Shown here: one piece after another, positions 6,331 to 48,955 of the stretch
How the letters are laid out: each line of letters opens with the position of its first letter
Position numbering within the stretch: the stretch's first letter is position 1
Origin: Chryseobacterium bernardetii
GTDB lineage: Bacteria; Bacteroidota; Bacteroidia; Flavobacteriales; Weeksellaceae
Assembly (NCBI RefSeq): GCF_003815975.1
Contig: NZ_CP033932.1
Span: 4,941,501 to 5,005,500 of the forward strand
Direction of reading: 5' to 3'
Length of the DNA stretch: 64,000 bases
Position numbers and translations under genes: made by a program
The notes under the pieces: generated by a model
Seen by the model: only the letters and a program-made list of their open reading frames with translations
Told to the model about the DNA's origin: nothing
Databases searched by the model: none

Positions 6331-7932
6331 TTATCTTCTTGTTCTGCTCTTATCATTAGTTCTGGCATCCTGTGCAACACGGAAACCAATCCAACCATAA
6401 GCTTTACCTTGATTTTTATATCTTCTTTGTCCCGGATCAAGCCAGTATGCAGTATCTTGCCAAGAACCTCCTTTTACTACTCTAACATCGTTAGAGATTG
6501 CTGAAGTTCTGTCTTTAGTATCTTTCATCATTTTTACTCTTCCGCTTCCGTCTACAACAAATCTCTTACGAGGTGCATTGTACATATTAAATCCTGAAGC
6601 AGAATCTGATTCACTTCTGTATTCTAAAGAAGATTGTCTGTCTCCGTCTCTAAAGTTTCTGTAATCAGCAATTGTTTCTCTCTCAAACTGCCCTGGAAGT
6701 CCTTTGTATACTAATCTTCCATCAGCCAGGGTATCATACTTTATGGTACCTTCGTCTATCATTTTATAGGTTCCGTCACCGTTTCTTACGATAGCCTGAG
6801 GCATATTTCCTCTATAGTAGTTGAAATCATTGTAATCTTCATCAATGATAGGTCTGTAAACATCGGCAGTCCATTCTGCAACGTTACCGTACATACCATA
6901 GATACCAAGGTCGTTAGAAGGATACTGTCTTACATCTGATGTTTGCGCAGATCCATCGTTTTTCCACCCGGCAATACCTGAATAGTCTCCTTTACCCATT
7001 TTAAAGTTTTCAAGGAACATTCCTCTATCTCTTCCTTTGGTACCTCTTAACCTTTCGATTTCAGGCTTTTTACCCAGGTATTGGTTGTATTCTCTGTTTT
7101 TCGCCATTCCTAAAGCTGCATATTCCCATTCAACTTCAGTAGGAAGTCTGAATTTCTGAACCATTGCAGCGTTCGGAGCTCTGTTGGCAGCCAGCAATCT
7201 CTGGTTGGTAGTTTTCATACCGGATTTCTGCTGCATTCTTTTTTCGTTGATATATCCCTGCATTTCCGGATCATTCGCTTTGAATTTATCCATGTTAAAT
7301 GCTGTACCACCCTGGTTATTGGATTCGTTGATATATAAATCTTTAGCAATCACACCTGCCTGCATCAAAGCTTTTTCGTTTGCTCTGTCTGTAAGCCATT
7401 CGCAATATCTGTTTGCCTGTGTCCAGGAAACACCTACCACAGGGTAGTAATCGAATTCCGGAGAACGCAGATAAGTTTCTTGATAATCGTTTCTTGATAA
7501 TTTGTTATCCCATAATAAGGTATCTGGCAAAGCCCCGTTATAGATTTCCTTAAAACTAGGGTCACTTGGTGGGAATACATACTTCAACCATGTAAGGTAT
7601 TCGCGGTATTCATAGTTAGTAATTTCTGTTTCTCCGATGAAGAATGAACTCACCTGCATTCTGCGCGGTGTATTATTCCAATCATGCATAACATCATCTT
7701 TCACTAATCCCATTGTAAAAGTTCCACCTTCTACATATACCATTCCCGGCCAACCCTTCTGCTTCTGTTGCTTTCCTGCAAAAAACCAACCCTGTTTTTC
7801 GTTTGGTTTCCAACCCGTTTTACTGACAAATTTTTTGGTACCGCCACCTTTGCTGGTCCCTGATCCGCCACAGCTGGTTAATGCAAGTGTAGAACTTAAT
7901 GCTATTAATGAAAACAACTTTAGTTTTTTCAT
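6331..7932 (-). CDS. gldJ: Gliding motility / T9SS lipoprotein GldJ
   Basis: GldJ is an outer-membrane lipoprotein needed for gliding and for stable type IX secretion cores in Flavobacterium johnsoniae. I start at the ATG at 7932 (MKKLKLFSLIAL), giving 533 residues; a lipobox LTSC places the lipidated Cys at residue 21. The rest is a formylglycine-generating-enzyme-like (SUMF1/C-lectin) fold: VYVEGGTFTMG, ITNYEYREYL, LPTEVEWEYAA, GMYGNVAEWTADVY, VVKGGSW and GFRVAQD. The long protein and its divergent position next to porU-porV match the arrangement known in Flavobacteria. Presence does not show that the strain glides, since non-gliding relatives also keep gldJ. Confidence 0.93.
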   Translation of the reverse strand: MKKLKLFSLIALSSTLALTSCGGSGTSKGGGTKKFVSKTGWKPNEKQGWFFAGKQQKQKGWPGMVYVEGGTFTMGLVKDDVMHDWNNTPRRMQVSSFFIGETEITNYEYREYLTWLKYVFPPSDPSFKEIYNGALPDTLLWDNKLSRNDYQETYLRSPEFDYYPVVGVSWTQANRYCEWLTDRANEKALMQAGVIAKDLYINESNNQGGTAFNMDKFKANDPEMQGYINEKRMQQKSGMKTTNQRLLAANRAPNAAMVQKFRLPTEVEWEYAALGMAKNREYNQYLGKKPEIERLRGTKGRDRGMFLENFKMGKGDYSGIAGWKNDGSAQTSDVRQYPSNDLGIYGMYGNVAEWTADVYRPIIDEDYNDFNYYRGNMPQAIVRNGDGTYKMIDEGTIKYDTLADGRLVYKGLPGQFERETIADYRNFRDGDRQSSLEYRSESDSASGFNMYNAPRKRFVVDGSGRVKMMKDTKDRTSAISNDVRVVKGGSWQDTAYWLDPGQRRYKNQGKAYGWIGFRVAQDARTNDKSRTRR

Positions 7933-8097
7933 AGTCGATATAAATATTTTCAAGAGTACAAAGAAAAAATAAATTATTCAATAAATCAAATAAAGATTTG
8001 ATTTTTTTGAACAACGATAACAAATTAATTTTATTGTATTACAATTTAATTCTAAAATTTTCATTTATTTTGTAATTTAGCAATTTCAATAATAAAC

Positions 8098-11000
8098 ATG
8101 AGACGAAAAATCACGCTTTTATCTTTAATCGCTTTTACATCAATACTTTACGCCCAAAAAAACACCATAGAATGGGATGGTTCAAAAATTCAGGACTTTG
8201 GTGATTCAAAATTAAATCTTCCAAATTTTAAAAATGGAGGTTTTTCTTTCAGCCAAAATAACATTTTTATAGTAACAAAGCAAAAAATCGGAGAAAAGGA
8301 GCTAAAAATTTCTGACCTTGCCTGGGATGGTGTTTCTAACCAGGATTTATTTGAATTGGATAAAGGTGGATTACCTGACCGTGATATTGCTGAAGTTAAC
8401 TATTACACATTAGATGGAGAAAGATATGCCAGCATTAGTGTAGGTTTATTTAAAAAGACAAAAAGTGGTGTTCTGAGACTGTCTTCTTTTAATGTTTCCG
8501 AAGCCTCCACTCCAGTTAATACTTATGGAGGCGTCAATAAGATAGGAACTACCGATACCCCCCTTGCCAGCGGGAACTTTTACAAAATAAAGGTAGACAA
8601 ATCCGGAATATTTAAAATTACCGCACAGTTTTTAAGAGATAACGGAATTAATCCCGCTTCTGTAAATCCTAAGAATATGAGAATTTATGGAAATGGCGGT
8701 ATTATGCTTCCTGAATTCAATCAGGATCCCCGCTATAATTCTTTACAGGAAAATGCCATTCAGGTAGTGGGTGAAGATGACGGAGTATGGAATGATAACG
8801 ACTATGCTTTGTTCTATGCCCAGGGACCTAATGGATATAACCTTTATGATACCAGCAACGGAAATGGCTTTAAAAGAAAAGAGACCAGAACAGATGCCAG
8901 TAATAATCTCAAAAATATATATGATGACTTTTCCTACTACTATATCAATTTTGATAAAGGCGCCGGAAAAAGAGTTGCTACTGTAGACGGAAACTTACCT
9001 GCTCAAATGATAACCCGGTATGACAGCTACCAGGTTATCAACAATGATCAGACTAATTTATTGAAAGTAGGAAGAATATGGGTAGAAGAAACTCCTTTCA
9101 CCACTGAAAAGACAATCACCCTTACTACTAACTCTCCTATGCAGCCTACGGATGTTATAAAATACAGGTCACAGGTGGTAGGATACCGATCACAACAGAA
9201 TTTTATTGATATTAAAATTAATGATCTGAATCCGTTTCATGATAAGGTTCCTACTGATGAACCTACCTATTCGTATATGTTCTACCCTATGAGGTATAAC
9301 GGAAGCATTACCAATCAGACAGGAAATCAGATCACATTGAAATACACTCCTGATATTTCTGCAAATCCTAATGGGGCTTTTTATTTTGACTATCTTGAAG
9401 TACAGTACAAAGAGAATCTTTCATTCAATGGTTCGCAGATGAATTTCAGGGATTATTCTATCGTGAGCGGAAGTAATACCGATTATGGATTCAGTATTTC
9501 CAATGCATCCAGTCTGGAACAGGTATGGGACGTTACAGATATTACTAACGCCAACAGAAGAGTGAATAAAGCGGGAGCCGGCTTTTTCAATTTTGCATAT
9601 AAGGCTTCTGACCAGTATTTCAACAATGAATTTGTTGCCTTCCGTGCAGATGCAGCTTTCACCCCACAGTTTGTAGGAAGAATTGCCAATCAGAACCTAT
9701 CAGCAATCAGCAATATAGATTATCTGATTCTTACCGTACCGGAGCTGATGGGACAGGCACAAAGGCTGGCCAATTATCATCAGACAAAAAATAATTATAA
9801 GGTAGAAATTGTAGACGTTAATAAGGTCTATGAAGAATTTGGAAACGGAAGTAAAGATCTTACTGCCGTAAGAGATTTCGTTACAAAATTAAATACTCCG
9901 GAAGGAAGGCTTAAATATGTATTTATTCTTGGAGATGCATCTTATGATTATAAGAATAGAGTTCCCAATAATAACAATATTGTTTCAGCCTATCAAAGTG
10001 AACATTCTTCAGATTATGTACAGTCTTTCGTTACAGACGACTATATTGTAATGACACAGCCTCAGACCGGAACCAGCATACTGTACAATCTGCCCAACCT
10101 TCCCGTAGGAAGAATTCCTGCTTCCAATAACACAGAAGCGGCCAATATGATTGATAAGACTCTGGCTTATTACAATGCACTTCCAGGCCAATCCAGTCCT
10201 TTTGGAGATTGGAGAATGAAGCTTGATTTTGTTGTAGATGATAATGAAGAAGGCGGAAGCCCTTTCCATAATGTGATGAACAATGCACTGGTTAATGTAT
10301 TTGAACAGCCAGGAGTACAGACCCTGAAAGAATACAATGTAAAAAAGCTGTATCAGGATGCTTTTACGATGCAAAGTACTGCGGGAGGGCCTAGATATCC
10401 GCAGGTAAACCAAGCCATTTCTAACAGTATAGGAAACAGTTTATATCTTTTCTATTTTGGACATGGAGGAATCAACGGTTGGGCTCAGGAAAGAGTATTA
10501 ACCAGTACTGAAATCCAGAATTCCAATAATTTCTCCAACGTATATAGCAGATTTCCGTTTGTATCTACCATAACCTGTGAATTTACGTTATGGGATGAAC
10601 CCTCTACCAATTCTGCCGGTGAGCAGTTCATAAAATTAAAGCAAGGAGGCCCCGCTTCTATGATTACTTCCAGCCGTGCTATAGCCATTGATTATGGGCG
10701 AAGCTTCACAGATACTTTCACCAAACATATTTTTAAATTAACAGGTGATGATTTTAATACTTTGGGTTACGCTCACCTGAATGCAAAAAAAGAAACTGGA
10801 GGCAATCCTAATCACCTCAGGGTAAATGTATTGGGAGATCCTGCCATGAAACTGAGCCGACCTCAAAGGCTATTAGTCATTGATAATATTGAAACTCCGG
10901 TTCCGGGATTGATAAGAGGTCTTGACTTCGTTAAAGTAAAAGGCCATATCAATAATCCTAACGGAAGTTTGAATACTGCCTTCAACGGAAGAGTTGCCAT

Positions 11001-11994
11001 TAATATTTTTGATAAAAGACTGAATAAAAAAACACTGAACAACAATAACTGGAGCCATCCTGTTCTGAATTACACTGAAGAAGGAAGTGCAATCGTAAAA
11101 GCTTCCGGGCTGGCTGTAAATGGTGTATTTACTGCAGAATTCTATGTTCCTAAGGATATCAATTATGCTGTTGGTGAAGGAAGAATATTAGGATATGCTG
11201 ATAATAAGGTAACCGATGTATTCAATAATCAGTCTGTTCAGGTGGGAGACATTAACCCTAATGGAATTAATGACAACCAGCCGCCAAAAGTAAAACTGTA
11301 CATGAACAACACCAACTTTGCGGATGGTGGAATTACCAATCAGAACCCGATGCTTCTGGCTTGTCTTACTGACGATACAGGAATTAACTCTACCGGATCA
11401 GGTGTAGGCCATGATATTACCGTATATCTAGATGGTCAGGTTATCAATACGGTTATCCTGAATGACTTCTACTCTCCCGGTGAAGGAAACGGATGTCTAA
11501 ATCCAAGTCTTGCCGAATATCAAAAAGGAAATGTAAGCTACCCTTTCAGAAATCTTCCGGTTGGGCAGCACCAATTAACATTTAAAGTTTGGGATATAAA
11601 CAATAATTCAACAACTACAACGTTAAATTTTGAGGTTAAAGATGAAGCAGACCAACATCTGACGATCAACCGTCCGTTGAACTGGCCAAATCCATTCACC
11701 AATAAAACGTATATTCAGTTTGAACATAATTGTGATGATATCCTGGATGTGAATGTACAGATTTATACCATAACCGGCAGATTGGTAAGAACTTTATCTC
11801 AACCGGTAGTTGCAGAACCCTTCCTTCAGGGCTATAGAACCCCTCGTCAGGCTATAGAATGGGACGGAAGAGATGATTTTGGGGCTACTGTTGCAAAAGG
11901 TACATATATTTTTAAGATATTTGCAAAAAGTCAAAACCAAGAAAAATGCAAAGGAAGTGCCACAGCTGTAGAAAAAATGGTACTTTTGAAATAA
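8098..11994 (+). CDS. porU: T9SS C-terminal signal peptidase PorU
   Basis: PorU is the surface cysteine peptidase that removes C-terminal sorting domains from type IX cargo and attaches them to the cell surface. The protein has 1298 residues, with signal peptide MRRKITLLSLIAFTSILYAQ. A gingipain-type (C25) domain carries the catalytic pair: His789 in YFGHGGINGW and Cys827 in TITCEFTLWDEP. Ig-like strands follow, then a FlgD-like C-terminal domain (NWPNPFTNKTYIQF ... VAKGTYIFKIFA). It precedes porV by 59 bases and is divergent from gldJ across 165 bases. Confidence 0.95.
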   Translation: MRRKITLLSLIAFTSILYAQKNTIEWDGSKIQDFGDSKLNLPNFKNGGFSFSQNNIFIVTKQKIGEKELKISDLAWDGVSNQDLFELDKGGLPDRDIAEVNYYTLDGERYASISVGLFKKTKSGVLRLSSFNVSEASTPVNTYGGVNKIGTTDTPLASGNFYKIKVDKSGIFKITAQFLRDNGINPASVNPKNMRIYGNGGIMLPEFNQDPRYNSLQENAIQVVGEDDGVWNDNDYALFYAQGPNGYNLYDTSNGNGFKRKETRTDASNNLKNIYDDFSYYYINFDKGAGKRVATVDGNLPAQMITRYDSYQVINNDQTNLLKVGRIWVEETPFTTEKTITLTTNSPMQPTDVIKYRSQVVGYRSQQNFIDIKINDLNPFHDKVPTDEPTYSYMFYPMRYNGSITNQTGNQITLKYTPDISANPNGAFYFDYLEVQYKENLSFNGSQMNFRDYSIVSGSNTDYGFSISNASSLEQVWDVTDITNANRRVNKAGAGFFNFAYKASDQYFNNEFVAFRADAAFTPQFVGRIANQNLSAISNIDYLILTVPELMGQAQRLANYHQTKNNYKVEIVDVNKVYEEFGNGSKDLTAVRDFVTKLNTPEGRLKYVFILGDASYDYKNRVPNNNNIVSAYQSEHSSDYVQSFVTDDYIVMTQPQTGTSILYNLPNLPVGRIPASNNTEAANMIDKTLAYYNALPGQSSPFGDWRMKLDFVVDDNEEGGSPFHNVMNNALVNVFEQPGVQTLKEYNVKKLYQDAFTMQSTAGGPRYPQVNQAISNSIGNSLYLFYFGHGGINGWAQERVLTSTEIQNSNNFSNVYSRFPFVSTITCEFTLWDEPSTNSAGEQFIKLKQGGPASMITSSRAIAIDYGRSFTDTFTKHIFKLTGDDFNTLGYAHLNAKKETGGNPNHLRVNVLGDPAMKLSRPQRLLVIDNIETPVPGLIRGLDFVKVKGHINNPNGSLNTAFNGRVAINIFDKRLNKKTLNNNNWSHPVLNYTEEGSAIVKASGLAVNGVFTAEFYVPKDINYAVGEGRILGYADNKVTDVFNNQSVQVGDINPNGINDNQPPKVKLYMNNTNFADGGITNQNPMLLACLTDDTGINSTGSGVGHDITVYLDGQVINTVILNDFYSPGEGNGCLNPSLAEYQKGNVSYPFRNLPVGQHQLTFKVWDINNNSTTTTLNFEVKDEADQHLTINRPLNWPNPFTNKTYIQFEHNCDDILDVNVQIYTITGRLVRTLSQPVVAEPFLQGYRTPRQAIEWDGRDDFGATVAKGTYIFKIFAKSQNQEKCKGSATAVEKMVLLK

Positions 11995-12053
11995 TTGAGT
12001 AACACATAGACAATAAAAATTATAAAAAACTGATAATATATAAAAGACAACAT

Positions 12054-13202
12054 ATGAATTTAACTACTAAACTGCTTTTAGGACTTGGGTTAAGTGCTGG
12101 TTTTCTAGGCTATTCACAAATAAACCCAGTACTTACCGGAGCTCCCTTCCTGAGAATTGCGCCAGATGCAAGAGCGGGAGGTATGGGAGATCAGGGGGTG
12201 GTGACCTCTCCTGATGCATTTTCACAATTCTGGAATGCAGCTAAATATCCTTTCAGCAGAACAAGTTCTTCCATAGGTCTTACCTATACACCCTATATGG
12301 GAAAACTTACCAACGATGTATTCTTATTATACGGAGCATTCCATAAATTCCTTGGCCAGGATGAAAGGTCCACCATTTCCGCAAGTATCTATTACTTTAA
12401 TATGGGTGAGGTAGACCTTACTCAGTTAGTGGGTAATGACGTTACTTCAAACGGGGTATCAAAACCTAACGAGTTTTCCATTGATGTGGCGTATGGTCTG
12501 AAACTTTCTGACTCTTACTCCATGGCTGTAACCGGTAGATTTATCCGTTCAGACTTAGCTGGGGGATTCAATACAGATAACACCCTTAAAGCAGCCAACT
12601 CTTTTGCTGTAGATGTTTCAGCATATTATACGTCAGAAAGATTCTCAAGTTTCGGAGGATATGACGGTAAATTAAATGCAGGTCTTGCCATACAAAACCT
12701 GGGTCCAAAGCTTGATTATACCGGAAATGAAGAATCAAGATCCTATCTTCCTACCATGGCAAGATTAGGGGTTGGGTATGATATGTATCTGGATGACCTG
12801 AACAGAATCGGAATCTCTGTAGAAGGTTCAAAACTTTTGGTACCGGGATCTGAATATGTAGGGGTAGATGCTTACAGAAGACCTAAATATGAAATTCCAA
12901 ACGTAGGCCCTATAGCAGGTATCGGAAAATCGTTTAAAAATCCAAACAGCATTATGTATAGTGGTGCTTTAGAATATTCATATGACAATGCTTTCTCAGT
13001 AAGAGGAGGTTACTTCCATGAAAGTGAAGAACAGGGAGCAAGACAATTCGCTACTGCCGGTATCGGATTAAAGTACCGTTCTTTCGGACTTGATCTTTCT
13101 TACCTGATCAATATGTCTAAAGTGAATACAGCATTGGATAATACCCTTCGTTTCGGTCTTACCTGGAACATTGGTGAAGAAACATCCAACAACGACCGTT
13201 AA
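12054..13202 (+). CDS. porV: T9SS outer-membrane shuttle protein PorV (LptO)
   Basis: PorV is a FadL-like 14-strand outer-membrane barrel that carries secreted cargo from the SprA translocon to PorU. The 382-residue protein has a signal peptide ending GYSQ and the family opening block FLRIAPDARAGGMGDQGVVTSPDA, followed by FWNAAKYPF, and a barrel-type C-terminus (NTLRFGLTWNIGEE). It lies 59 bases after porU and ends at a strong terminator, so porU and porV likely form one operon. Confidence 0.95.
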   Translation: MNLTTKLLLGLGLSAGFLGYSQINPVLTGAPFLRIAPDARAGGMGDQGVVTSPDAFSQFWNAAKYPFSRTSSSIGLTYTPYMGKLTNDVFLLYGAFHKFLGQDERSTISASIYYFNMGEVDLTQLVGNDVTSNGVSKPNEFSIDVAYGLKLSDSYSMAVTGRFIRSDLAGGFNTDNTLKAANSFAVDVSAYYTSERFSSFGGYDGKLNAGLAIQNLGPKLDYTGNEESRSYLPTMARLGVGYDMYLDDLNRIGISVEGSKLLVPGSEYVGVDAYRRPKYEIPNVGPIAGIGKSFKNPNSIMYSGALEYSYDNAFSVRGGYFHESEEQGARQFATAGIGLKYRSFGLDLSYLINMSKVNTALDNTLRFGLTWNIGEETSNNDR

Positions 13203-33640: not shown

Positions 33641-35410
33641 TTAATACATCTTCTCTATAATATCTGCATATTTTTTAAGAACCACGTTTCTTTTAACTTT
33701 CAATGTTGGGGTGATTTCTCCTGTATTGATGTCAAATTCTGCCGGCATCAGCGTGAATTTTTTCACTTTCTCATAATCGGCAAGGTGATTTTGCAGCTCT
33801 TTAATCTTATCTTTATAAAGGTTGATTATCTTTTCGTTTTTCACCATATCTTCCCAATGGGTGAATGGTATATTGTTCTTTTTAATATAGTCCTGTAAAA
33901 ACTCAAAATTCGGAACAATTAAGGCAGATACAAACTGTCTTCCTTCCGCTACCAGCATAATCTGCTGAATGAAATTATTATTGGTCAGAAGATTTTCAAT
34001 CTGTTGCGGTGCGATATATTTTCCGTTGGAAGTTTTCATCAGATCCTTAAGTCTGTCTGTAATAATCAGATTTCCTTTATCATCTAATTTACCCGCATCA
34101 CCTGTTTTAAACCAGCCGTCTTCTGTAAATACTTTCTGAGTTTCTTCAGGTCTGTTATAATATCCTTTCATGATCCCGTTTCCTCTGGCCTGGATCTCAT
34201 CACTTTCTCCAATACGGATTTCTACTCCTGGCAGTGGTTTACCGCTTGTTGCATGCTCAAAATGAGTTAAAGGGAAAAGCGTTAAGGTAGCTGTAGTTTC
34301 TGTTAAACCATATCCAACGGTAACATGGATCCCTACAGATTCAAAGAATCTGGTAACTTCCGGAGATAGTGAGGCTCCACCACAAGGTAAAAACCATAAT
34401 CTTCCACCCATTTTTTCCTTGATCTTACTGAAGACCAACATATCTGCAACAGATTCTTTTAATTTTAACCCAAAAGGAATTGGTCTTTCATTTCTTCTTA
34501 ATTCTGCAGTTTCCCAGCCGGTTTTTAAAGCCCAATCAAAAATCTTTTTCTTTAAGGATGAACCTTCTTCTGCTTTTTCAAGAACTCCGGCATATACTTT
34601 CTGGAAGAATCTCGGTACCGCACACATGGCAGTAGGCTTTACTTCCTCCAATGCTTTGGCTACGTTTTTCGGATCTTCAAGGAAATAAACCCTTGCACCA
34701 CCATAAAGGCACAATAAACTCCAGCTTCTTTCAAAAACATGGCTTAATGGTAAGAATGCCAATGAAAGCTCTTCTTCAAAGTTTTTAAATTTAAAAAATT
34801 CAAAATGGGAATCGAATGCCTTGATGAAATTCCCATGGGTAAGCATAACCCCTTTAGGTATTCCTGTGGTACCCGAAGTATAGATCAGCGTAGCCGTATC
34901 GTCATATTCTCTTTTGCAGATCTCCAGTTTTGGAGAAGCCTTGGCAATGAAATCTTCAAGATAAAAGCTGCTGAATTCTTTCTTGATCCACACTGCTTTT
35001 TTAGAAACAATAATGGTTTCAAGATAATTATCTTCTTTGTGTAAAAGTTCCAGACAGGCATCGTACTGCATTTGGTTTCCTACCAGGATCACCTTCGTTC
35101 CGGAATCTTTAATGATATATTCTGCCTGCTCAGCATTATTCGTAGAATAAATTGGAACAGTAACTGCTCCAATAGACATTGCTGCCAAATCCATTATCAT
35201 CCATTCAGATGAATTATCTGAATAAATAGCCACTTTATCATTTTCCTGAACACCTGCTCCTTTTAGTGCATTGGCGGTTTTAAAAATAATTTCACTGAAT
35301 TTCTTCCAGCTCAGCTCTTTCCAGGCTTCTTCTTTCTTTTTAAAACCAATGGCTGCTTTAATAGGATGTTTTTCTACATTTTTAAGGATTATTGCCTCTG
35401 CAAGATTCAT
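33641..35410 (-). CDS. Long-chain acyl-CoA synthetase-type AMP-binding ligase
   Basis: The 589-residue cytoplasmic enzyme activates a fatty acid with ATP and joins it to CoA. The P-loop-like motif YTSGTTGIPKGV is at residues 177-188; further blocks are PLSHVFERSW, VGYGLTETTATLTL, GWFKTGDAG and ITDRLKDLMKTSNGKYIAPQQIE with the late catalytic Lys region. Length and the AKALEEVKPT block fit the FadD15/ACSL group. The start overlaps the end of the upstream SDR gene by 4 bases (ATGA), so the two are co-translated. Confidence 0.93.
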   Translation of the reverse strand: MNLAEAIILKNVEKHPIKAAIGFKKKEEAWKELSWKKFSEIIFKTANALKGAGVQENDKVAIYSDNSSEWMIMDLAAMSIGAVTVPIYSTNNAEQAEYIIKDSGTKVILVGNQMQYDACLELLHKEDNYLETIIVSKKAVWIKKEFSSFYLEDFIAKASPKLEICKREYDDTATLIYTSGTTGIPKGVMLTHGNFIKAFDSHFEFFKFKNFEEELSLAFLPLSHVFERSWSLLCLYGGARVYFLEDPKNVAKALEEVKPTAMCAVPRFFQKVYAGVLEKAEEGSSLKKKIFDWALKTGWETAELRRNERPIPFGLKLKESVADMLVFSKIKEKMGGRLWFLPCGGASLSPEVTRFFESVGIHVTVGYGLTETTATLTLFPLTHFEHATSGKPLPGVEIRIGESDEIQARGNGIMKGYYNRPEETQKVFTEDGWFKTGDAGKLDDKGNLIITDRLKDLMKTSNGKYIAPQQIENLLTNNNFIQQIMLVAEGRQFVSALIVPNFEFLQDYIKKNNIPFTHWEDMVKNEKIINLYKDKIKELQNHLADYEKVKKFTLMPAEFDINTGEITPTLKVKRNVVLKKYADIIEKMY

Positions 35411-36420
35411 TTCTTCAGCTTTTTGTCGTTAATATAATTGTTCAGGTGAAAGTCTATGCTTTCTTGGATGGGAATAAACTGATAATTCAGTTTTTCCTTG
35501 ACTTTGTGATTGGAAATGGTGTTGAATGAAGAGATAGCCTCAATATTGGATTCTGTGATCATTCTAAGCTTAGGAATCAGCCATCCGAAAAGAGTATTAG
35601 CCCATTTTCCTATGTTTAATTGCCATCTTGCAAGAATTTTTGCTTCTTTAAGGCCCAATCGGGTCCTGATCTGTTTTGCCAGATCGGCATATCTGTTATT
35701 TTCGGCAACAATAATAAAACGTTCCCCAAAAATATTGTTTTCCATCAGTTCAATGGCAGTTTTAGCAACATCTCTCACATCCACATAAGCAGATCCGCCG
35801 GCAAACGTAAAGCTGTTATCTTCAAAGGTTGAGAAAAGCTCACCGCTGCTTTGTGTCCAGTTTCCACTTCCTACGATCATTCCAGGATTGATGATAACTA
35901 CGTTCATTCCTTCTGCTGAGGCTCTCCAGACTTCCATTTCAGATAAGTGTTTGGAAATAGCATAGGCAGAATGTTCTAATTTTGGATTGAAATCGGAACC
36001 TTCATCAAGCTCTCCTTTCTCATTATAGTTATCTAAAACGGCTACAGAGCTTACATGCAGAAATTTTCTGACACTGGAATCTTCGCAGGCATACAACAGA
36101 TTTTCAGTACCTTTAATATTCGTATGGTACATTTCTTTCTCATCTTTGGGATGAAAGCTCACTTTTGCGGCACAGTGGTAGACCTCATCTACTCCTTTCA
36201 AAGCATCCTTTAAGGAATCAATATCATCAAAATCCACATTAACCCATTCTATCTTATTGAAAAAATCATCAGGATTCTCCGTATAAAAGCTGTATGAATG
36301 CCTTACTTCGTTTAAATTGCTGCCCGGTCTTTTGGAAGCACGTACGCTTTTACCTCTTTTAAGAAGCTCCAGCACGATTATTCTCCCCAGAATTCCGGTT
36401 GCACCCGTTACAAAAACCAT
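35407..36420 (-). CDS. Extended SDR (NAD-dependent epimerase/dehydratase-like)
   Basis: The 337-residue protein starts with the Rossmann loop MVFVTGATGILGRIIVLELL (TGATGILG) and has the YxxxK catalytic pair in HSAYAISKHLSEM, as well as HVSSVAVLD and INPGMIVGSGNW. This places it in the extended SDR group near dihydroflavonol-reductase/3-beta-HSD-like proteins. The substrate is unknown. The four-base overlap with an acyl-CoA ligase suggests a lipid-related reduction, which is inference only. Confidence 0.88.
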   Translation of the reverse strand: MVFVTGATGILGRIIVLELLKRGKSVRASKRPGSNLNEVRHSYSFYTENPDDFFNKIEWVNVDFDDIDSLKDALKGVDEVYHCAAKVSFHPKDEKEMYHTNIKGTENLLYACEDSSVRKFLHVSSVAVLDNYNEKGELDEGSDFNPKLEHSAYAISKHLSEMEVWRASAEGMNVVIINPGMIVGSGNWTQSSGELFSTFEDNSFTFAGGSAYVDVRDVAKTAIELMENNIFGERFIIVAENNRYADLAKQIRTRLGLKEAKILARWQLNIGKWANTLFGWLIPKLRMITESNIEAISSFNTISNHKVKEKLNYQFIPIQESIDFHLNNYINDKKLKK

Positions 36421-36820
36421 TAAATTATGTTGCTTGATTGCTGACTAAAATATGACAATATTTTTTATCCGGCAATTCTTCAGGTTCCTATAAAAGTTAC
36501 CTGAAAAACTGCTTTTGCAAATTTGCGATTTTTAAAACAAAATTCAACTTTATTTAACCAATATTATCATTCTGAAAATCAGAAAATATGAAATTTAAAT
36601 ACAGAGTACTTTTATTTCAACCACAAATCGAATCGTTAATAAAGTCAAAAAACATTTTTCTTTGAGCACATAAGTTTTTAAAAATACCTCCGTTGAAAAC
36701 GTAAAAAATTCTCATCTACTGCAGCGCTGGCAAAAATTTAGGAGGTTTTGACGGAGTGGTTTAATAAAAAAGCCCTGAAAGCATTACAACTTCCAGAGCC
36801 ACTATATAAAAATTAATCAT
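36421..36820. other. 400-bp intergenic region between graspetide operon and SDR gene
   Basis: I searched both strands for further short precursor ORFs with a PFFAxFLE box or a PSD core and found none. The right end holds the operon terminator (36765-36800). A stretch at 36640-36760 resembles decayed sequence, but no family could be recognised. Confidence 0.5.
36765..36800 (-). terminator. Terminator of the graspetide operon
   Basis: On the minus strand GGCTCTGGAAG pairs with CTTTCAGGGCT across an 8-base loop (10-11 pairs including G-U), followed by six T residues, about 20 bases beyond the MvdD-like stop codon. Confidence 0.75.
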
Positions 36821-37825
36821 TTATACCATTACCACATTATCTCTTCTAGGAGCTTTATCACAAAGCACATCTGCAATACTTCTGGAGATAAGGTTTCCTT
36901 CCGTAAGTTTATCCAGCCAGAAGAACTCTCCGGCTGCATTGATTTCGATAAAATAATATTCATCTTCAGGAGAAACAATAATATCTATCGCGCCATAGTC
37001 TACATGATAAACATCCAGAAGTTCCAGAAGTTTTTCTTCAACATCTGGCGGTAATTGTGTCTGCGTCCATTTATCTAACAGATTAACCCCATCTTTTCGC
37101 CAGTCTACTTTAGCGTCTTCAAACTGTTGGGAATCTACTTCAAAAGCATACACATCTCTTCCCACAATCGTCACCCGCAGTTCTTTTTTCTTTTGAATCA
37201 TTTTCTGAAACTGCATTGGGCAATACAGCAGTGAATCCAGCTCTTCAAGTTTGTCTTCACTCACCACATTGGTAAAGACCACGCTTTCTACACCATCTTC
37301 ATAAATTGCAAAACCGGTTTGCATTTTAGCGACCACATTCTTGTGTTTAAGGATAAACTGTTTTGCTTCTGCAGGGCTATTGGTGAGGCAGGTTTCCGGT
37401 ATTAAAAGCCCTATTTTATGAGCTATTTTGAGCTGTTCTTCCTTACTGTCGAGTCTTCTGTACACACTTGGTTTGCCTAATGAATACACATCAACAGATT
37501 CAAAGAAACCAAATAAAGTATTACGGATCTCCCCCATAGCGGCACCCAGGAATTTGGCATCTATTTCATCCTTCAACCCTTTCCCGATATTGTAAGCCCG
37601 TCGATACCAGACTGCTGAAATATCTTCCAACCGGTATTTTTTCTCTGATGTTTCAAGCAATGTGATCCATTTCCCATCCTGGAAAACAGTCGACAGTTTA
37701 TTTTGTAAAGGATACAGGTCAACATCAAAACGAATGACCTCACAATTATTCTCTTTAATATATTCCGTTACTTTTTCAATGGAAAAATTATCTGCAGTAT
37801 GTGTTATAATTAAAATTTTATTCAT
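36821..37825 (-). CDS. MvdD-like ATP-grasp graspetide ligase
   Basis: MvdD-type enzymes use ATP to join Thr/Ser hydroxyls to Asp/Glu side chains of a precursor peptide, making omega-ester rings. I start at the ATG at 37825 (MNKILIITHTADN), giving 334 residues; the open frame reaches 37954, but that extension overlaps the preceding gene and is not family-like. Visible blocks: VWYRR (72-76), GFAIYEDG, CPMQFQK (202-208), LRVTIVG (216-222), DWR (241-243), and the metal site AID (Asp281) with EIN (Glu294, Asn296) then GEFFWL. These match MvdD more closely than MvdC by memory. It overlaps the MvdC-like gene by 8 bases and is the last gene of the operon. Confidence 0.88.
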   Translation of the reverse strand: MNKILIITHTADNFSIEKVTEYIKENNCEVIRFDVDLYPLQNKLSTVFQDGKWITLLETSEKKYRLEDISAVWYRRAYNIGKGLKDEIDAKFLGAAMGEIRNTLFGFFESVDVYSLGKPSVYRRLDSKEEQLKIAHKIGLLIPETCLTNSPAEAKQFILKHKNVVAKMQTGFAIYEDGVESVVFTNVVSEDKLEELDSLLYCPMQFQKMIQKKKELRVTIVGRDVYAFEVDSQQFEDAKVDWRKDGVNLLDKWTQTQLPPDVEEKLLELLDVYHVDYGAIDIIVSPEDEYYFIEINAAGEFFWLDKLTEGNLISRSIADVLCDKAPRRDNVVMV

Positions 37826-38774
37826 GGATATTGATTCTTTTAATAAGGTTATCGGCAATTCTTTCTGCAATGGGAAATCCCAGTTCTTTTTGCAGCATTC
37901 CCCACTCTCCCTGCGGATTGACTTCCAGAAAATAATACTTCCCATCTTTACCACGGATCATATCAATAGCTCCCGTATACAATCCCATTTCCTTCATCAT
38001 AGACGTCAGATTGGTTCTGATATCGGCAGGCAGTTCATAAGCTGTCCAGAAATAGTCTTTATGGCTCACCCTCCAGTCTGCATTTTCACTGTTGTTGATC
38101 TTTCCCGTATAAAATTCCCCGTCTACATACATAATCCTCAGTTCATATTCTTTATTTATATAAGGTTGAAAAATCATAGGACAATAGATCATACCCGAAA
38201 GGTTCTCCAGCGTTTCCTGCTCTATTACCATTGTGGAAATCAGGTTTTCACCACTCATTGTTTTACGGATTACTCCGTGAAGTTTAGCAATAGCTTTTCC
38301 TGAGCAATGCTCTTCAAAAAAAGCTTTTACTTTCTCTTCATCGTTGGTAAAAACAGTAGGGGGAATCGTCAGATGATTTCGTTTCGCTACTTTCAGCTGA
38401 AACATTTTATTTCCATCAACTTTCTTTTCATTTTCGTAAGGATTAATCCATGGAAGATGCTGCAGTTGGGTAAACAGATTGTAGCGGAGATGGGCATATT
38501 CATTCAGGAATATTTTTTCGTATTCCTGATCCAATTCCTCAGGGACGCTTATCCGCCATATTTTTCTATTCCATACTCCTGTAATATCATTGGAACTGAC
38601 AGATTTCCCATCTTCACCAGTAATCTGGAATGAATCTTCACTGATGCTGATTTTCTGTAGATGATTCAACTGATCAGAATTCAGTCTGAAATAAGGAATA
38701 TTTTTAGAAGAAAGATACTGAAAAAAACGATCAATAGTATAAAAATCCTGTGAGTGGGTAATACAGAGAATCAT
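37818..38774 (-). CDS. MvdC-like ATP-grasp graspetide ligase
   Basis: MvdC-type enzymes usually close the Lys-to-Glu omega-amide bond of microviridins after the ester rings are made. The 318-residue protein begins MILCITHSQDFYTIDRF and has VWNRK (67-71), the lysine-containing IAKLHGVIRK (162-171), CPMIFQ (198-203), LRIMYVDG (212-219), DWR (233-235) and metal-site residues Asp271, Glu284 and Asn286 (LEVNPQGEW). It is paralogous to the next gene with the same block order. Assignment to amide rather than ester formation is inference: the VWNRK variant and its place in the pair point that way, but activity cannot be read from sequence. It lies 89 bases after the precursor, with a hairpin between. 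Confidence 0.83.
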   Translation of the reverse strand: MILCITHSQDFYTIDRFFQYLSSKNIPYFRLNSDQLNHLQKISISEDSFQITGEDGKSVSSNDITGVWNRKIWRISVPEELDQEYEKIFLNEYAHLRYNLFTQLQHLPWINPYENEKKVDGNKMFQLKVAKRNHLTIPPTVFTNDEEKVKAFFEEHCSGKAIAKLHGVIRKTMSGENLISTMVIEQETLENLSGMIYCPMIFQPYINKEYELRIMYVDGEFYTGKINNSENADWRVSHKDYFWTAYELPADIRTNLTSMMKEMGLYTGAIDMIRGKDGKYYFLEVNPQGEWGMLQKELGFPIAERIADNLIKRINIHE

Positions 38775-38793
38775 TCGCCGATTTTATTAAAAA

Positions 38794-38819
38794 GGGAAAC
38801 TTAACATGTTAAGTTTCCC
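38794..38819 (-). terminator. Perfect 26-bp palindrome between precursor and ligases (attenuator-like)
   Basis: GGGAAACTTAACA and its exact reverse complement TGTTAAGTTTCCC are joined without a loop base and, on the minus strand, are followed by TTTTT. Lying between the precursor stop and the first ligase start, it should end most transcripts after the precursor and let a minority read into the ligases, as in many peptide operons. An operator for a dimeric regulator is the alternative. Confidence 0.75.
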
Positions 38820-38863
38820 CCTTTGTTACAATTTTTTTATATGTTACCGTAAAATAATCATTT

Positions 38864-39082
38864 TTATAGTTCAGCGGTATCATCATCCCCATCAGAAGGA
38901 TATTTCATGGTATGATCCATATCGGTTAACTTAGATGTTACACCATCCAAAGTAGGCTTTGTAACAGCGTCTCTCTCAGGAATTGTAATATCAGTTCCTC
39001 CTTTCACTGTTTCCGGATCTTTAAGTTGTTTTTCAAGAAATGACGCGAAAAACGGTTTCTTTTTTGAGTTTTTGTCTTTCAT
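38864..39082 (-). CDS. Microviridin-type graspetide precursor peptide
   Basis: The 72-residue peptide carries the graspetide leader box PFFASFLE at residues 10-17 (compare PFFARFLE of microviridins), a linker with a double-glycine motif (VKGG, residues 26-29), and a C-terminal core TMKYPSDGDDD at 58-68, followed by TAEL. By alignment to the microviridin core TxKYPSDxEE, Thr58 would ester-link to Asp64, Ser63 to Asp66, and Lys60 could form an amide with Asp67; both usual Glu acceptors are Asp here. A weaker look-alike, TSKLTDMD (49-56), precedes the core. Products of this type inhibit serine proteases. The two following ligase genes confirm the call. Strand and start are clear (ATG at 39082). 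Confidence 0.93.
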   Translation of the reverse strand: MKDKNSKKKPFFASFLEKQLKDPETVKGGTDITIPERDAVTKPTLDGVTSKLTDMDHTMKYPSDGDDDTAEL

Positions 39083-39197
39083 AAGTTAATATGTTTATTT
39101 ATTTGATAATCGAATATACAAACTTTTTCAACTCATGGAGAAATAATTCAATATTTTAAGATAATTTTAACATATAATCAAAATAGAAAGAATATTA

Positions 39198-39977
39198 TTA
39201 ATCCAAACCAAGGAATTGCTTAACAACAATAGCAAAATCAACAGGGTTTTCAGCCTGAACCCAATGGCCTGCATTTTTAACGGTTACAATCTTAGCTTTT
39301 GGAAACTGCTGTTTGATTCCATATTCATCCTGCGGCAGGATGTAATTAGATTTTTCCCCCGCAATAAACAGGGTTTCCCCTTCAAAAACGCCAAATTTCA
39401 CAGCATTGGAAACAAATTCATTATACTTTTCAGACAGCGTTTTAAGGTTAAACCTCCAGTTCAGCTTTTTATTATCATCCCAGTACAGGTTCTTCGTTAA
39501 AAACTGTATTGTTGATTTTTCAGGGATATACTGACTCAAAATAGCTTCCACCTCATTCCTTGAGCTTACGGTATTAAAATCCACCGTTTCAAGGGCCTTG
39601 ATGATTCCCTGATGATGTGGTGGGTAAGCTTTGGGTGAAATATCAACCACAATCAGCTTTTCTACTTTTTCAGGATATTTTATAGCAAACTGCATCACAG
39701 CTTTCCCTCCCAGAGAATGTCCTAGAACATGCGCTTTCTGAATACCATAATGTTCCATATAACGGGCAATGTCATCAGCAAGATCATCGTGAGACATATC
39801 ATCGGAATGAAAACTTCTTCCATGATTTCTAAGATCTATAAGGTGTACCGGAAGATATTCTCCAAGATCTTTTCCGAAACTTCCCCAGTTATCAAGCATC
39901 CCAAACAATCCGTGGAATACTAAAAGCGGCGTAGCGGCAGAACTTTCGCCAAATATTTTTGAATTTAAGATTTCCAT
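39198..39977 (-). CDS. Alpha/beta-hydrolase (YbfF-like esterase)
   Basis: The 259-residue cytoplasmic enzyme has the nucleophile elbow GHSLGGKAV (around residue 85), an oxyanion-hole stretch LLVFHGLFGMLDNWG, the block IDLRNHGRSFHS, and the catalytic His in KNAGHWVQAENP near the C-terminus. This pattern is typical of the YbfF esterase group, active on short acyl esters in vitro. It lies 115 bases upstream of the graspetide precursor in the same direction, but YbfF-like genes are widespread housekeeping genes, so a role in the peptide pathway is unlikely. Confidence 0.88.
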   Translation of the reverse strand: MEILNSKIFGESSAATPLLVFHGLFGMLDNWGSFGKDLGEYLPVHLIDLRNHGRSFHSDDMSHDDLADDIARYMEHYGIQKAHVLGHSLGGKAVMQFAIKYPEKVEKLIVVDISPKAYPPHHQGIIKALETVDFNTVSSRNEVEAILSQYIPEKSTIQFLTKNLYWDDNKKLNWRFNLKTLSEKYNEFVSNAVKFGVFEGETLFIAGEKSNYILPQDEYGIKQQFPKAKIVTVKNAGHWVQAENPVDFAIVVKQFLGLD

Positions 39978-40069
39978 ATTTTTTTAAATAACAGATTTGA
40001 AATACAGATTCCGGAGGATCAGGACAAGACTTTTACTATAAAATCTAAATCTTACATCCGGCATCTATT

Positions 40070-40789
40070 TTACCATTTCGCCAATCTCTTCAAATAAGAC
40101 TGAACTGTATTTTCTAAGCCCATGTATAACGCTTCAGAGATCAAGGCATGTCCGATGGATACTTCTAACAGATTTGGAATAGTATCTGCAAAATACTTCA
40201 GGTTTTCAAGGCTCAGATCATGTCCTGCATTAATTCCTAAACCAAATTCATTAGCAGCAACAGCGGTATCATAATAAGGTTTGATAGCCTGCTCTTTATT
40301 GGATAAGTAGTTTTTTGCATAAGCTTCCGTATAAAGCTCAATTCTATCTGCTCCGGTTTTTGCGGCATATTCTACCAGTTCCGGTAGGGGATCAAGAAAG
40401 ATAGATGTACGAATACCTGCATTTTTAAATTCTGCGATGATTTCCGTAAGGTAATCCTGGTGTTTTTTAGTATCCCAACCAGCATTGGACGTAATAGCAT
40501 CATCTGCATCCGGAACCAGCGTTACCTGCTCAGGCTTTACATCCAATACCATATCAATAAAAGACTGATGCGGATTTCCTTCAATATTAAACTCAGTCGT
40601 CACCAATGGTTTCAGATCATAGACATCCTTTCTTGTAATGTGCCTTTCATCCGGCCTTGGGTGAATCGTAATTCCCTGTCCCCCGAATTCCTGAATCTTT
40701 ATAGCGGCTTCTGTCACACTTGGTGTTTCACCTCCTCTTGCATTTCTTAATGTCGCAATCTTATTGATGTTTACGCTTAGTTTTGTCAT
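40070..40789 (-). CDS. pdxJ: Pyridoxine 5'-phosphate synthase
   Basis: PdxJ condenses 3-amino-2-oxopropyl phosphate and deoxyxylulose 5-phosphate to pyridoxine 5'-phosphate. The 239-residue TIM-barrel protein starts MTKLSVNINKIATLRNARGG and has GITIHPRPDERHI, FLDPLPELVEYAAKTGADRIELYTE, GINAGHDLSLENL and SIGHALISEALYMGL, all family blocks. Deoxyxylulose phosphate is thus required for B6 even though the cell makes isoprenoids through mevalonate (mvaD at 32.4 kb). It precedes the esterase gene by 92 bases. Confidence 0.95.
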   Translation of the reverse strand: MTKLSVNINKIATLRNARGGETPSVTEAAIKIQEFGGQGITIHPRPDERHITRKDVYDLKPLVTTEFNIEGNPHQSFIDMVLDVKPEQVTLVPDADDAITSNAGWDTKKHQDYLTEIIAEFKNAGIRTSIFLDPLPELVEYAAKTGADRIELYTEAYAKNYLSNKEQAIKPYYDTAVAANEFGLGINAGHDLSLENLKYFADTIPNLLEVSIGHALISEALYMGLENTVQSYLKRLAKW

Positions 40790-40923
40790 TTTTATATTTA
40801 GATGTTAGATAACAGAAGTTAGAAGATGGAAGGCAGAAGCTGGATGTTTATCCGGGCTTACGACTTCACTAAGGTATTCTAACTGTATTATCACTTAAGT
40901 TTATTTTTTAGAGCATTATCTCT

Positions 40924-42192
40924 TTATACTTTAACACTTACCTGCATCACCTGAAGCTCAAATTCTTTGGATGCTACCAGCAAATGATCAAAAATATCAG
41001 CCTGGATCTGTTCAAAATGTTCCCATTTGGAATCATTGGCAAAACAATAGATCTCAAGAGGAAGCCCTTGCGGGGTAATTTCCAGCTGGCGGACCATTCT
41101 TGTTGCATTTACTTCAATATCAGGATCGTTTTCTATGTATTTTTGTGCATAATACCTGAAAACCCCGATATTCGTAAGCTGCCTTCCGTTAATGGTTTTA
41201 TCATTATTGCTCAGGTTTTCTTTTTCACTTCTGATTTCCACTCTTTTCTGTTCGAGATAATCTGCAATCAAATTAATTTCTTTTAAACGTTCAATGTCCT
41301 CATCCGTAAGAAACTTAAAGGAATTGATATTAAAATAAATAGACTTCTTGATTCTTCTGTTATTAGATTCAGACATTACCTGCATATTTTTAATTTCCGT
41401 AGTCAGGAAATCATAAGTAGGAATGGTAGAAACCGTTTTATCAAAATTGGTAATTTTTGTAGTCAGGAGGCTTATTTCAGTAATATTTCCTTCAATACTG
41501 TATTTGGGAATGCTGATCCAGTCTCCTACTTTCAGATTCTTGGAAGTAGCCACATGAATCCCGGTAACAAATCCCAGAATAGTATCCCTGAAAACAAGTA
41601 CCAAAACTGCCGTTATCGCCCCAAGGCTTCCCACAATTGTAGTTCCCTTAATCCCGAAAATCACGCATAAACCCACCACTGAGAATACAAAGATCCCTAA
41701 AATCTTCACCGTTTCTGAGATGGCGTTCAGGGCCATAATCTTGTAGAAATCCTGTTTGATGGAGAAATAATTCCTGAATGCAGTTAATGACCTGTACAAC
41801 ATTCCAGCCAAAATCATTACCAATCCCAGATTCACAGACCGGAAAATGAAAATTGTTGTCTTGGGTAATGCTCCTTCAGGAAAAATTGATTCTTGAATTC
41901 CCCCAACAACAGTCAAGGCGGCAAAATGGGCTACCGAATTGGTAATTTTAGATTGATAAATAGACTTGAGTACCGGAAATTTCTCTTCGTTATGGAACGA
42001 GCGAATAATAGCATTGATGACGAATTTAAAGACAAAGTCTACAATTAAGAACACAGCACAGAGCAAGGCCAGTTTTACAATGATATGAACAATCCAATCC
42101 AGCCCGGAGGGTGAGATCTGGGTAATGTAAATGTATAACCGTTCGCTTATTTCCTGCAAATAGTTCTTGGTTTCCTGTAGGTCATCTTTCAT
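40924..42192 (-). CDS. MscS-family mechanosensitive channel (YbdG-like)
   Basis: The 422-residue protein has five N-terminal helices, a pore helix with GSLGAITAVLVLVFRDTILGFVTGI, and the beta domain entry KVGDWISIPKYSIEGNITEISLLTTKI. Between beta and the C-terminal domain there is a long insert (RIKKSIYFNINSF ...) characteristic of the YbdG subgroup, which takes part in small osmotic responses. Family length matches (about 415). The upstream side (42193-42369) is shared with the divergent DUF456 gene. Confidence 0.9.
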   Translation of the reverse strand: MKDDLQETKNYLQEISERLYIYITQISPSGLDWIVHIIVKLALLCAVFLIVDFVFKFVINAIIRSFHNEEKFPVLKSIYQSKITNSVAHFAALTVVGGIQESIFPEGALPKTTIFIFRSVNLGLVMILAGMLYRSLTAFRNYFSIKQDFYKIMALNAISETVKILGIFVFSVVGLCVIFGIKGTTIVGSLGAITAVLVLVFRDTILGFVTGIHVATSKNLKVGDWISIPKYSIEGNITEISLLTTKITNFDKTVSTIPTYDFLTTEIKNMQVMSESNNRRIKKSIYFNINSFKFLTDEDIERLKEINLIADYLEQKRVEIRSEKENLSNNDKTINGRQLTNIGVFRYYAQKYIENDPDIEVNATRMVRQLEITPQGLPLEIYCFANDSKWEHFEQIQADIFDHLLVASKEFELQVMQVSVKV

Positions 42193-45095: not shown

Positions 45096-45608
45096 TCAAT
45101 GTTTTATATTTTTAAAACTGAAAACAATATTATCTGGATTGTGTTTGTCTCTTTCACCTTCTTCAAGAATAAAATGATGCTTTAAAAGAAGCTTTTTAGA
45201 GTTCTCATTGAATCTGCTTGTGATGGCTATTATTTTCTGCAACCCTAATGTGTTCAATCCATACTCCAAAACAACAGACAAAGCTTCAGACATAATTCCT
45301 TTTCTATGATAATCAGGCAGTAGTTCATACCCTACTTCCGCCATTGTTTTATCTGATGAAAAATTCCAGAGGCAAATGGTCCCAATAAGATTCCCGGAAT
45401 CTTTATATGCTATTCCCCAAAAAGCAACTTTCCCATCCTGAGTTTCTCTTTTAATATGCAGAATAAATTCCAGGGCATCATAATTGGTCTTAGGAGAATT
45501 TCTTTTCACATATAAATTCGTTATTTCATTGCTTCTGATTTTAAGAATATCCTCTACATGGCTCTCATTGATCTCTTTCAGGATCAGTCTTTCAGTTTCC
45601 AGTTTCAT
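45096..45608 (-). CDS. GNAT N-acetyltransferase (RimJ/RimL-like)
   Basis: I start at the ATG at 45608 (MKLETERLILKEI), giving 170 residues. The LETERLILKEI opening, KVAFWGIAYKDSGNLIGTICLWNF strand pair and YELLPDYHRKGIMSEALSVVLEYGL (acetyl-CoA loop RKGIMSEA) are typical of RimJ-type GNATs. The acceptor is unknown. A GNAT acts on the microviridin N-terminus in cyanobacteria, but this gene is over 6 kb from the precursor, so no link is claimed. Confidence 0.88.
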   Translation of the reverse strand: MKLETERLILKEINESHVEDILKIRSNEITNLYVKRNSPKTNYDALEFILHIKRETQDGKVAFWGIAYKDSGNLIGTICLWNFSSDKTMAEVGYELLPDYHRKGIMSEALSVVLEYGLNTLGLQKIIAITSRFNENSKKLLLKHHFILEEGERDKHNPDNIVFSFKNIKH

Positions 45609-45735
45609 ATTTTCATCAAAAATTATCATTAAACGTGTGAAAGAAATACAGAATAAGGAATCATTCTTTCATCAATCTATTTTTGTAAATCACTCAAATA
45701 TACGTAATAATCAAAATTCTCACTAAATTTGCAGT

Positions 45736-48017: not shown

Positions 48018-48296
48018 ATGACCAAAAATTTTTCTGTCCTTTGGATCTTTTATAAAAAACTGATTATTCCTGCAGCCTTCTTTATTTTGCTGCTCATTTT
48101 TTTATTCTCGCTCAACATTCAAACTTTTGGGTTAAGCATTCTTTTAATTTTTCCCCTTCTTCATTACTTTGTCTATGAATTAAGATTTAAAAATGAATAT
48201 CATTTCTATGCTAATTTTGGATTTTCAAGATTATTTCTTTGGGGAATCACCCTATCTTTAAGTCTACTTATAGAGATTATTACACAGTTCTTATGA
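48018..48296 (+). CDS. Small membrane protein coupled to ABC ATPase
   Basis: The ATG at 48018 (MTKNFSVLWIF) gives a 92-residue protein with about three predicted helices (LIIPAAFFILLLIFLFSL, TFGLSILLIFPLLHYFVY, FLWGITLSLSLLIEIITQF). Its TGA shares three bases with the ATG of the ABC ATPase (ATGA), so the two are translated together. It is far too small for an ordinary ABC permease. Family not recognised. Confidence 0.72.
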   Translation: MTKNFSVLWIFYKKLIIPAAFFILLLIFLFSLNIQTFGLSILLIFPLLHYFVYELRFKNEYHFYANFGFSRLFLWGITLSLSLLIEIITQFL

Positions 48297-48955
48297 AAAT
48301 GCTCCATATTGACAGTATTACAAAATCTTTTGATGGCAGGCCTATTTTACAAGATATTTATCTGGGCTGTAAAACTGGTCAGATTATAGGATTATTGGGA
48401 AGAAACGGTTCCGGAAAGTCTACTTTACTCCGGATTATTTTCGGTACCATTAGTAGTGATACCCAGTTTATAAAATGTAATGATAAAGTTTTAAGAAATC
48501 TGTCTGACAGAAGGAATAAAATTTCTTATTTGCCTCAAAATTCCTTTTTACCTAAAAATGAGAAAATCAAGAAACTGATTCCGCTTTTCTGCAATAAGGA
48601 AAATACAGACTTACTGTATTCTTCAAGTCTTATCAAGCCTTTTCTGCATGAGAAACCTAAAAACCTTTCCTTAGGCGAACTTAGAATAATTGAAGCGCTT
48701 CTTATCATTCATTCTGATTCTGACTTTATTTTATTAGATGAGCCTTTTCATAGTCTTTCACCTAAAATATCCGAAGAGTTAAAAAAACTGATCCGCTTAC
48801 AAATGATAAACAAGGGTATTATTATTTCAGATCATAATTACCTGGATATTTTTGATATTTCAAATGATATATACCTTCTTTCCAACGGATATTTAAAGCC
48901 AATACAAGATTTAAAAGAACTACAACGGTATAATTATCTTCCGAAAAGCATTTAA
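48293..48955 (+). CDS. ABC-type ATPase with miniature membrane partner
   Basis: From the ATG at 48293 the protein has 220 residues and a full ATPase set: Walker A GRNGSGKST (36-44), Q-loop LPQNSFLP, signature LSLGELRII, Walker B FILLDEP and H-loop SDHNYLD. The signature is LSLGE rather than LSGGQ. The gene overlaps the small membrane protein gene and has no conventional permease next to it. The pair may form a specialised transporter or a regulatory ATPase; which one cannot be told. Confidence 0.82.
   Translation: MKMLHIDSITKSFDGRPILQDIYLGCKTGQIIGLLGRNGSGKSTLLRIIFGTISSDTQFIKCNDKVLRNLSDRRNKISYLPQNSFLPKNEKIKKLIPLFCNKENTDLLYSSSLIKPFLHEKPKNLSLGELRIIEALLIIHSDSDFILLDEPFHSLSPKISEELKKLIRLQMINKGIIISDHNYLDIFDISNDIYLLSNGYLKPIQDLKELQRYNYLPKSI

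Follow-up and report, generated by a model that had tools for sequence, protein, structure and literature searches.

The window, by which we mean the whole analysed stretch of 64,000 nucleotides, carries a locus that on sequence comparison is an orthologue of the published chryseoviridin locus (cdnA-cdnB-cdnC), and thus belongs to a locus type already described. Its single detected precursor is predicted to receive three small ester rings and, after them, a cage like that of the microviridins, and the product is likely to be a protease inhibitor, a reading to which we assign a probability of about 0.93. The locus is intact but ordinary, being of a kind found in most Chryseobacterium species searched. 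The less expected feature, which may matter more than the locus itself, is a hairpin between the precursor gene and the ligase genes, probably a partial transcription terminator.

Organization of the locus

Reading of the open reading frames reveals three intact genes on the minus strand, running from 39082 down to 36821, which encode a precursor peptide followed by an MvdC-type and an MvdD-type ATP-grasp ligase (Table 1). The two ligase genes overlap by 8 bp (37818-37825). We place the start of cdnC at the ATG at 37825, whose Met falls opposite the one at position 21 of the CdnC chain in the alignment; a mechanical list of open reading frames puts it at a GTG at 37954. An earlier note on this DNA had described a compact locus of three genes, with overlapping MvdC- and MvdD-type ligase genes and with a PFFASFLE leader box and a PSD core in the precursor, and had assigned it to the microviridin/chryseoviridin group of graspetides. 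The open frames, the overlap and the profile matches agree with that layout, the leader box is found at residues 10-17 and TMKYPSD at residues 58-64, and the assignment to the group is borne out by the matches to NF033738, TIGR04184 and 7mgv as well as by the published flanks.

Table 1. Features of the cdn locus and its flanks (window coordinates)
Feature	Position	Strand	Basis
Alpha/beta hydrolase, flanking gene; no known role in the pathway	39198..39977	-	PF00561
cdnA, precursor peptide, 72 aa	38864..39082	-	NF033738, PF12559, dN/dS
Leader box PFFASFLE, residues 10-17	39032..39055	-	Sequence
Predicted core region after GG (residues 28-29), 43 aa	38867..38995	-	Cleavage inferred from double-glycine leaders
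Hexad 1, T33-D38, predicted ester ring	38969..38986	-	T-x4-D; ring inferred
Hexad 2, T41-D46, predicted ester ring	38945..38962	-	T-x4-D; ring inferred
Hexad 3, T49-D54, predicted ester ring	38921..38938	-	T-x4-D; ring inferred
Terminal microviridin-like core TMKYPSDGDD, residues 58-67	38882..38911	-	Published TxKxPSDxD[DE]
Hairpin then T tract, likely partial terminator	38794..38819	-	Conservation and pairing
cdnB, MvdC-type ATP-grasp ligase, 318 aa, predicted lactam former	37818..38774	-	TIGR04185 (below cut-off), 7m4s
cdnC, MvdD-type ATP-grasp ligase, 334 aa, predicted ester former	36821..37825	-	TIGR04184, 7mgv
Terminator-like site after cdnC	36771..36800	-	Pattern scan only
NAD-dependent epimerase, flanking gene	35407..36420	-	PF01370

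A scan for sigma-70-type promoters gave hits at chance level (11 found, 11.4 expected), and no Rfam family matched positions 35000-41000 at E up to 1. None of the three cdn proteins matched a PADLOC family at E up to 0.001, so a defence role finds no support here. Elsewhere in the window, at 6331-13202, GldJ, PorU and PorV, which belong to gliding and type IX secretion, are encoded next to one another.

Family assignment of the ligases

The MvdD-type ligase scores 478.4 bits against TIGR04184, above the equivalog cut-off of 475, and its best solved relative is CdnC (7mgv, 4e-186). It is 81% identical over 334 residues to the protein of C. gregarium DSM 19109, which makes it the CdnC orthologue; the nearest relative, at 93%, is from C. 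contaminans (among the best 80 of 86 relatives, from which records of this genome itself were possibly left out). The MvdC-type ligase is 70% identical to C. gregarium CdnB, has AMdnB (7m4s) as its best solved relative and scores 413.2 bits against TIGR04185, below the cut-off of 425. The cdnB product is accordingly of MvdC type and is not filed as an MvdC equivalog. Because the proteins of the C. gregarium type locus also fall just under both cut-offs (418.5 against 425 for CdnB with TIGR04185, and 470.7 against 475 with TIGR04184), scoring below the threshold is a property of the group.

The grasp-with-spasm maturases (TIGR04192), two of which are encoded in this genome, share the pre-ATP-grasp domain PF21068 with the MvdD type. 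The cdn ligases reach 126.6 and 123.9 bits against TIGR04192 (cut-off 230), and the MvdC and MvdD families fit them far better. We considered whether the two other PF21068 proteins of the genome, at C1:1872198-1872521 (L006) and C1:1890190-1890561 (L005), could mark a second cdn locus, and rejected this, as both exceed the grasp-with-spasm cut-off of 230 with 346.3 and 264.4 bits, respectively. The gene at L006 is adjoined by a TIGR04139 target peptide and has a C39 peptidase gene about 4 kb away. Directly before the gene at L005 lies a 64-aa open reading frame with a Gly-rich tail (L005 1224-1418), a candidate precursor that matches no NCBIfam family.

Conservation across Chryseobacterium

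For comparison we used titled loci that carry a CdnC relative, taking the best 80 of 86; 79 are titled Chryseobacterium and one is a Weeksellaceae MAG. All of these best 80 contain relatives of cdnA, cdnB, cdnC and the alpha/beta hydrolase gene, and 76 contain the epimerase relative, two of the four misses being loci truncated at about 5 kb (L082 and L094). The order hydrolase-cdnB-cdnC-epimerase on one strand is likewise kept in 76 of these 80. In the window, too, cdnA-cdnB-cdnC stand between the hydrolase and the epimerase gene, the same flanks that a survey of 47 relatives of C. gregarium describes for this locus (PMC8939145). Of 173 Chryseobacterium genomes, 144 have the precursor family NF033738; among 296 genomes drawn from the taxonomic family, 126 have it, all belonging to one of 33 genera. 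The genome studied here has a single copy, one further match at E 1.1 not being credible.

Precursor peptide and predicted rings

The precursor matches the microviridin/marinostatin precursor family NF033738 with 72.9 bits (cut-off 26) and Pfam PF12559 with 31.4 bits (cut-off 21), and no PDB chain matches it at E up to 1. Against six relatives its dN/dS lies between 0.08 and 0.26, and it is thus under purifying selection. Our comparison set consists of 188 precursors from 81 loci, namely the best 80 of 86 titled relatives plus the window; the precursors were detected with a regular expression for the leader box, so that numbers of precursors are lower bounds. In one locus (L044) a gap of 341 bases precedes cdnB, and a second precursor was probably missed there. 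The leader box followed by GG is present in 188 of 188 precursors from the 81 loci, the box itself having been the criterion of selection.

Ahead of the terminal core the window precursor has three T-x4-D hexads, on which the earlier note was silent. Such hexads occur 599 times before the terminal core in the 188 precursors, compared with 117 in shuffled sequences that, like our stem controls, preserve single-letter composition only; every other spacing of T and D, up to a distance of eleven, occurs at most 128 times. Three hexads are found in 81 precursors, four in 72 and two in 34, and the sole precursor with none is the last one of L099 (C. potabilaquae, 2738-2966). Pro predominates at position 3 of the hexad (373 of 599), and many different residues occur at positions 2, 4 and 5.

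The window precursor contains TSKLTDMDHTMKYPSDGDD, which fits the published chryseoviridin motif TxxxxDxxxTxKxPSDxD[DE] (PMC8939145). Among the 188 related precursors, TxKxPSD is present in 177 and the full motif in 126. The earlier note had held that the core differs from the microviridins, which is not borne out: the core conforms to TxKxPSDxD[DE], and C. jejuense (L116) and L025 have the same last 15 residues. This comparison covered loci L001-L036 and the titled loci L037-L116, the best 80 of 86; in the titled loci the whole 43-residue core has no identical counterpart. We considered the core as a new type and rejected this, as the published motif fits.

Up to six rings are predicted from these motifs: three hexad esters, two further esters (T58-D64 and S63-D66) and one lactam (K60-D67). 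The calculated mass of the 43-aa core is 4707.205 Da without modification, and would be 4617.153 Da with five rings and 4599.142 Da with six. The acids raise a question about the last of these. In the window precursor the residues after PSDx are Asp-Asp, and as far as residue 68 the terminal core has no acid other than Asp, whereas microviridin lactams use Glu (PMC8939145), which makes the sixth ring uncertain. Across the 188 precursors the pair after PSDx is DE in 94, DD in 91, DA in two and DS in one; in the precursor adjacent to cdnB, 73 of the 81 loci have DD and eight have DE. The Lys of the predicted lactam is kept in 185 of 188 precursors and is replaced by Arg (TxRYPSD) in one precursor each of L084, L096 and L102, where the lactam could therefore not form. 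The residue between Thr and Lys is Met in the window precursor and in 125 of the 188.

Two other readings of the locus have to be weighed against this ring pattern. The peptide might be a plain microviridin with a single core, in which only TMKYPSDGDD is cross-linked and the hexads serve as an unmodified spacer. The terminal core alone does fit the microviridin motif, and the hexads of the window precursor, taken by themselves, are only mildly unlikely in shuffles (P 0.03). We nevertheless regard this as very improbable, since the excess of T-x4-D is kept across the group, with two to four hexads per precursor in 187 of 188, and since Thr and Asp stay in place while positions 2, 4 and 5 of the hexad vary widely. 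In the same direction points the title of the paper on the type enzyme, Zhao et al. 2021 on chryseoviridin, which names ester macrocycles, single as well as bicyclic, and a multicore product; the paper reportedly shows small single rings ahead of a microviridin-like core. Alternatively, the locus could be decaying, with several precursors reduced to one and the product lost. One precursor is detected here, compared with two to five in 64 of the 81 loci (again lower bounds), as decay would have it; yet 16 named relatives also have one detected precursor, all frames are open, the dN/dS values are low, and the hairpin and both ligases are kept, so that we give decay hardly any credence. Rings on the hexads as well as on the terminal core remain the reading that we prefer.

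A conserved hairpin between cdnA and cdnB

Between the precursor gene and cdnB, the coding strand reads GGGAAACTTAACATGTTAAGTTTCCC, followed by a T tract; in the window this sequence is a perfect palindrome of 26 bp. Perfect stems of at least 7 bp are found in 79 of 81 cdnA-cdnB gaps, compared with nine of 81 in the shuffled control, and in only two of 107 gaps between precursor genes (control 4). Being present in the former and scarce in the latter, the hairpin marks the junction from precursor to enzyme.

The nine-base arms are exact in 74 of the 81 loci, and all 81 agree in the outer eight bases of the 3' arm. In five of the seven variant loci the changes are confined to A-to-G in the 5' arm, where RNA can still form G.U pairs; in the other two the innermost pair is broken. 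The hairpin of L099 (C. potabilaquae) has two G.U pairs. These counts are of raw loci with kinship ignored, and one and the same variant is found in L061, L064 and L068. Loop sequences are unconstrained, with 35 kinds among 81 loci, and the flanking pair is A-T in 52 loci, G-C in 26 and G-T in three. In 81 of 81 loci, the eight bases that follow the stem include five or more T.

We also analysed covariation in 30 sequences chosen from the 81. In this alignment 96% of cells pair, and the outer pair is G-C for A-U in nine of 30 sequences, a value reached by one of 500 shuffles. A two-sided change is seen at a single pair, a number below that of the shuffles, of which 499 of 500 reach it; 7 of 11 pairs are invariant, the innermost is unpaired in 12 of the 27 sequences that have letters at this place, and the structure scores 0.097 for covariation, compared with 0.103 when it is slid by +1 column. 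With most pairs invariant, a single two-sided change and an equally high score for the slid structure, covariation adds little, and the evidence for the hairpin is its sequence conservation together with its pairing.

At the level of genomes, the exact hairpin pattern occurs once in the genome studied here. It is present in 131 of the 144 genomes of the genus with NF033738 and in none of the 29 without, a comparison made by hand in which nine of the 29 were assigned by their absence from the list of NF033738 matches; adjacency of the pattern to the locus was examined in the 81 loci. There is one exact site in 130 of the 131 genomes and two in G061 (C1:466145 and C20:59697). In G092 the exact match lies on another contig and a G.U variant adjoins the precursor. 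Of the 13 genomes that have a precursor and lack the exact pattern, at least eight (G043, G057, G063, G086, G100, G102, G103 and G119) show the A-to-G variant within 0.9 kb of the precursor match; the loose pattern behind these variants also matches elsewhere, at about the rate of its control.

A pattern scan for terminators lists the cdnA-cdnB hairpin on the plus strand only and finds two terminator-like sites in the region, with 1.7 expected in shuffles. As this is chance level, the case for the hairpin comes from conservation and not from the scan. Among the papers searched for intergenic terminators in RiPP clusters, the one match concerns enterococcal cytolysin. The main text of PMC8939145 does not describe the hairpin, the word itself appearing there only in the title of a reference.

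The hairpin probably acts in RNA, ending part of the transcripts as a partial terminator and so letting the precursor outnumber the ligase. It could instead be a DNA operator, or another site read by its sequence by a dimeric factor, and the perfect palindrome in the window, the nearly invariant arms across the genus and the single site in all but one of the pattern-bearing genomes, G061 having two, are what such a site would show. We consider an operator unlikely, because five of the seven variants keep a G.U pair in RNA and break the palindrome in DNA (the other two break the innermost pair), and because the freedom of the loop, the T tract present in every locus and the alternation of the flanking pair speak against it. 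The letters of the stem are nearly invariant, beyond the apparent need of a plain terminator, which leaves room for a sequence-read role: the hairpin might be, in place of a generic terminator, a dedicated RNA control element that goes with the presence of the precursor and whose stem is read by a factor that sets the amount of ligase per precursor, a possibility we rate as less likely than not. Partial termination remains our preferred account.

Proposed pathway and significance

The genes, their families, the synteny with named Chryseobacterium loci and the conserved residues are directly established, and from them a pathway may be proposed. The PFFASFLE leader would bind and activate the ligases. 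CdnC, of MvdD type, would form the Thr-Asp ester of every T-x4-D hexad as well as both esters within TMKYPSDGDD, and CdnB, of MvdC type, would make the Lys-Asp lactam. A C39 peptidase-transporter encoded elsewhere may then cut after GG and export the product of 43 aa. The locus holds no peptidase or exporter gene, and according to PMC8939145 such loci do not typically encode a peptidase. The genome has two distant C39 peptidase genes (C1:1867823 and C1:1312315), one of them about 4 kb from a grasp-with-spasm gene, and either could serve the cdn precursor.

The window thus adds one more intact chryseoviridin locus. As it has a single precursor, it is a convenient system in which to learn what rings are the work of CdnC, and whether a Lys-Asp lactam can be closed by CdnB on a core with Asp as its only acid. 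A hairpin conserved along with the pathway across the genus would show how these bacteria adjust the ratio of precursor to enzyme in such clusters.

Comparison with known systems

The closest named system is the cdn locus of C. gregarium DSM 19109, which has the same gene order, flanks, leader box, GG, hexads, terminal motif and hairpin; it differs in that four precursors are detected there (L101) and one in the window. With the cyanobacterial microviridins (Mdn/Mvd), the window locus shares a PFFA-type leader box (PFFARFL in cyanobacteria; PMC8939145), a TxKxPSD core and ATP-grasp ligases of MvdC and MvdD type. Unlike the cyanobacterial precursors, the window precursor has hexads before the core and Asp in place of Glu as the predicted lactam acceptor. 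The locus also departs from a cyanobacterial microviridin cluster in that neither an N-acetyltransferase nor an ABC transporter is encoded between the hydrolase and the epimerase gene; a GNAT gene (45096-45629) and an ABC ATPase gene (48239-48955) lie beyond several unrelated genes. Several cross-linked units per precursor are likewise described for AMdnA/AMdnC of Anabaena sp. PCC 7120 (PMC5934393). According to the same source, AMdnA has three cores with up to two macrolactones each, whereas the window precursor is predicted to have three single hexads and one terminal core.
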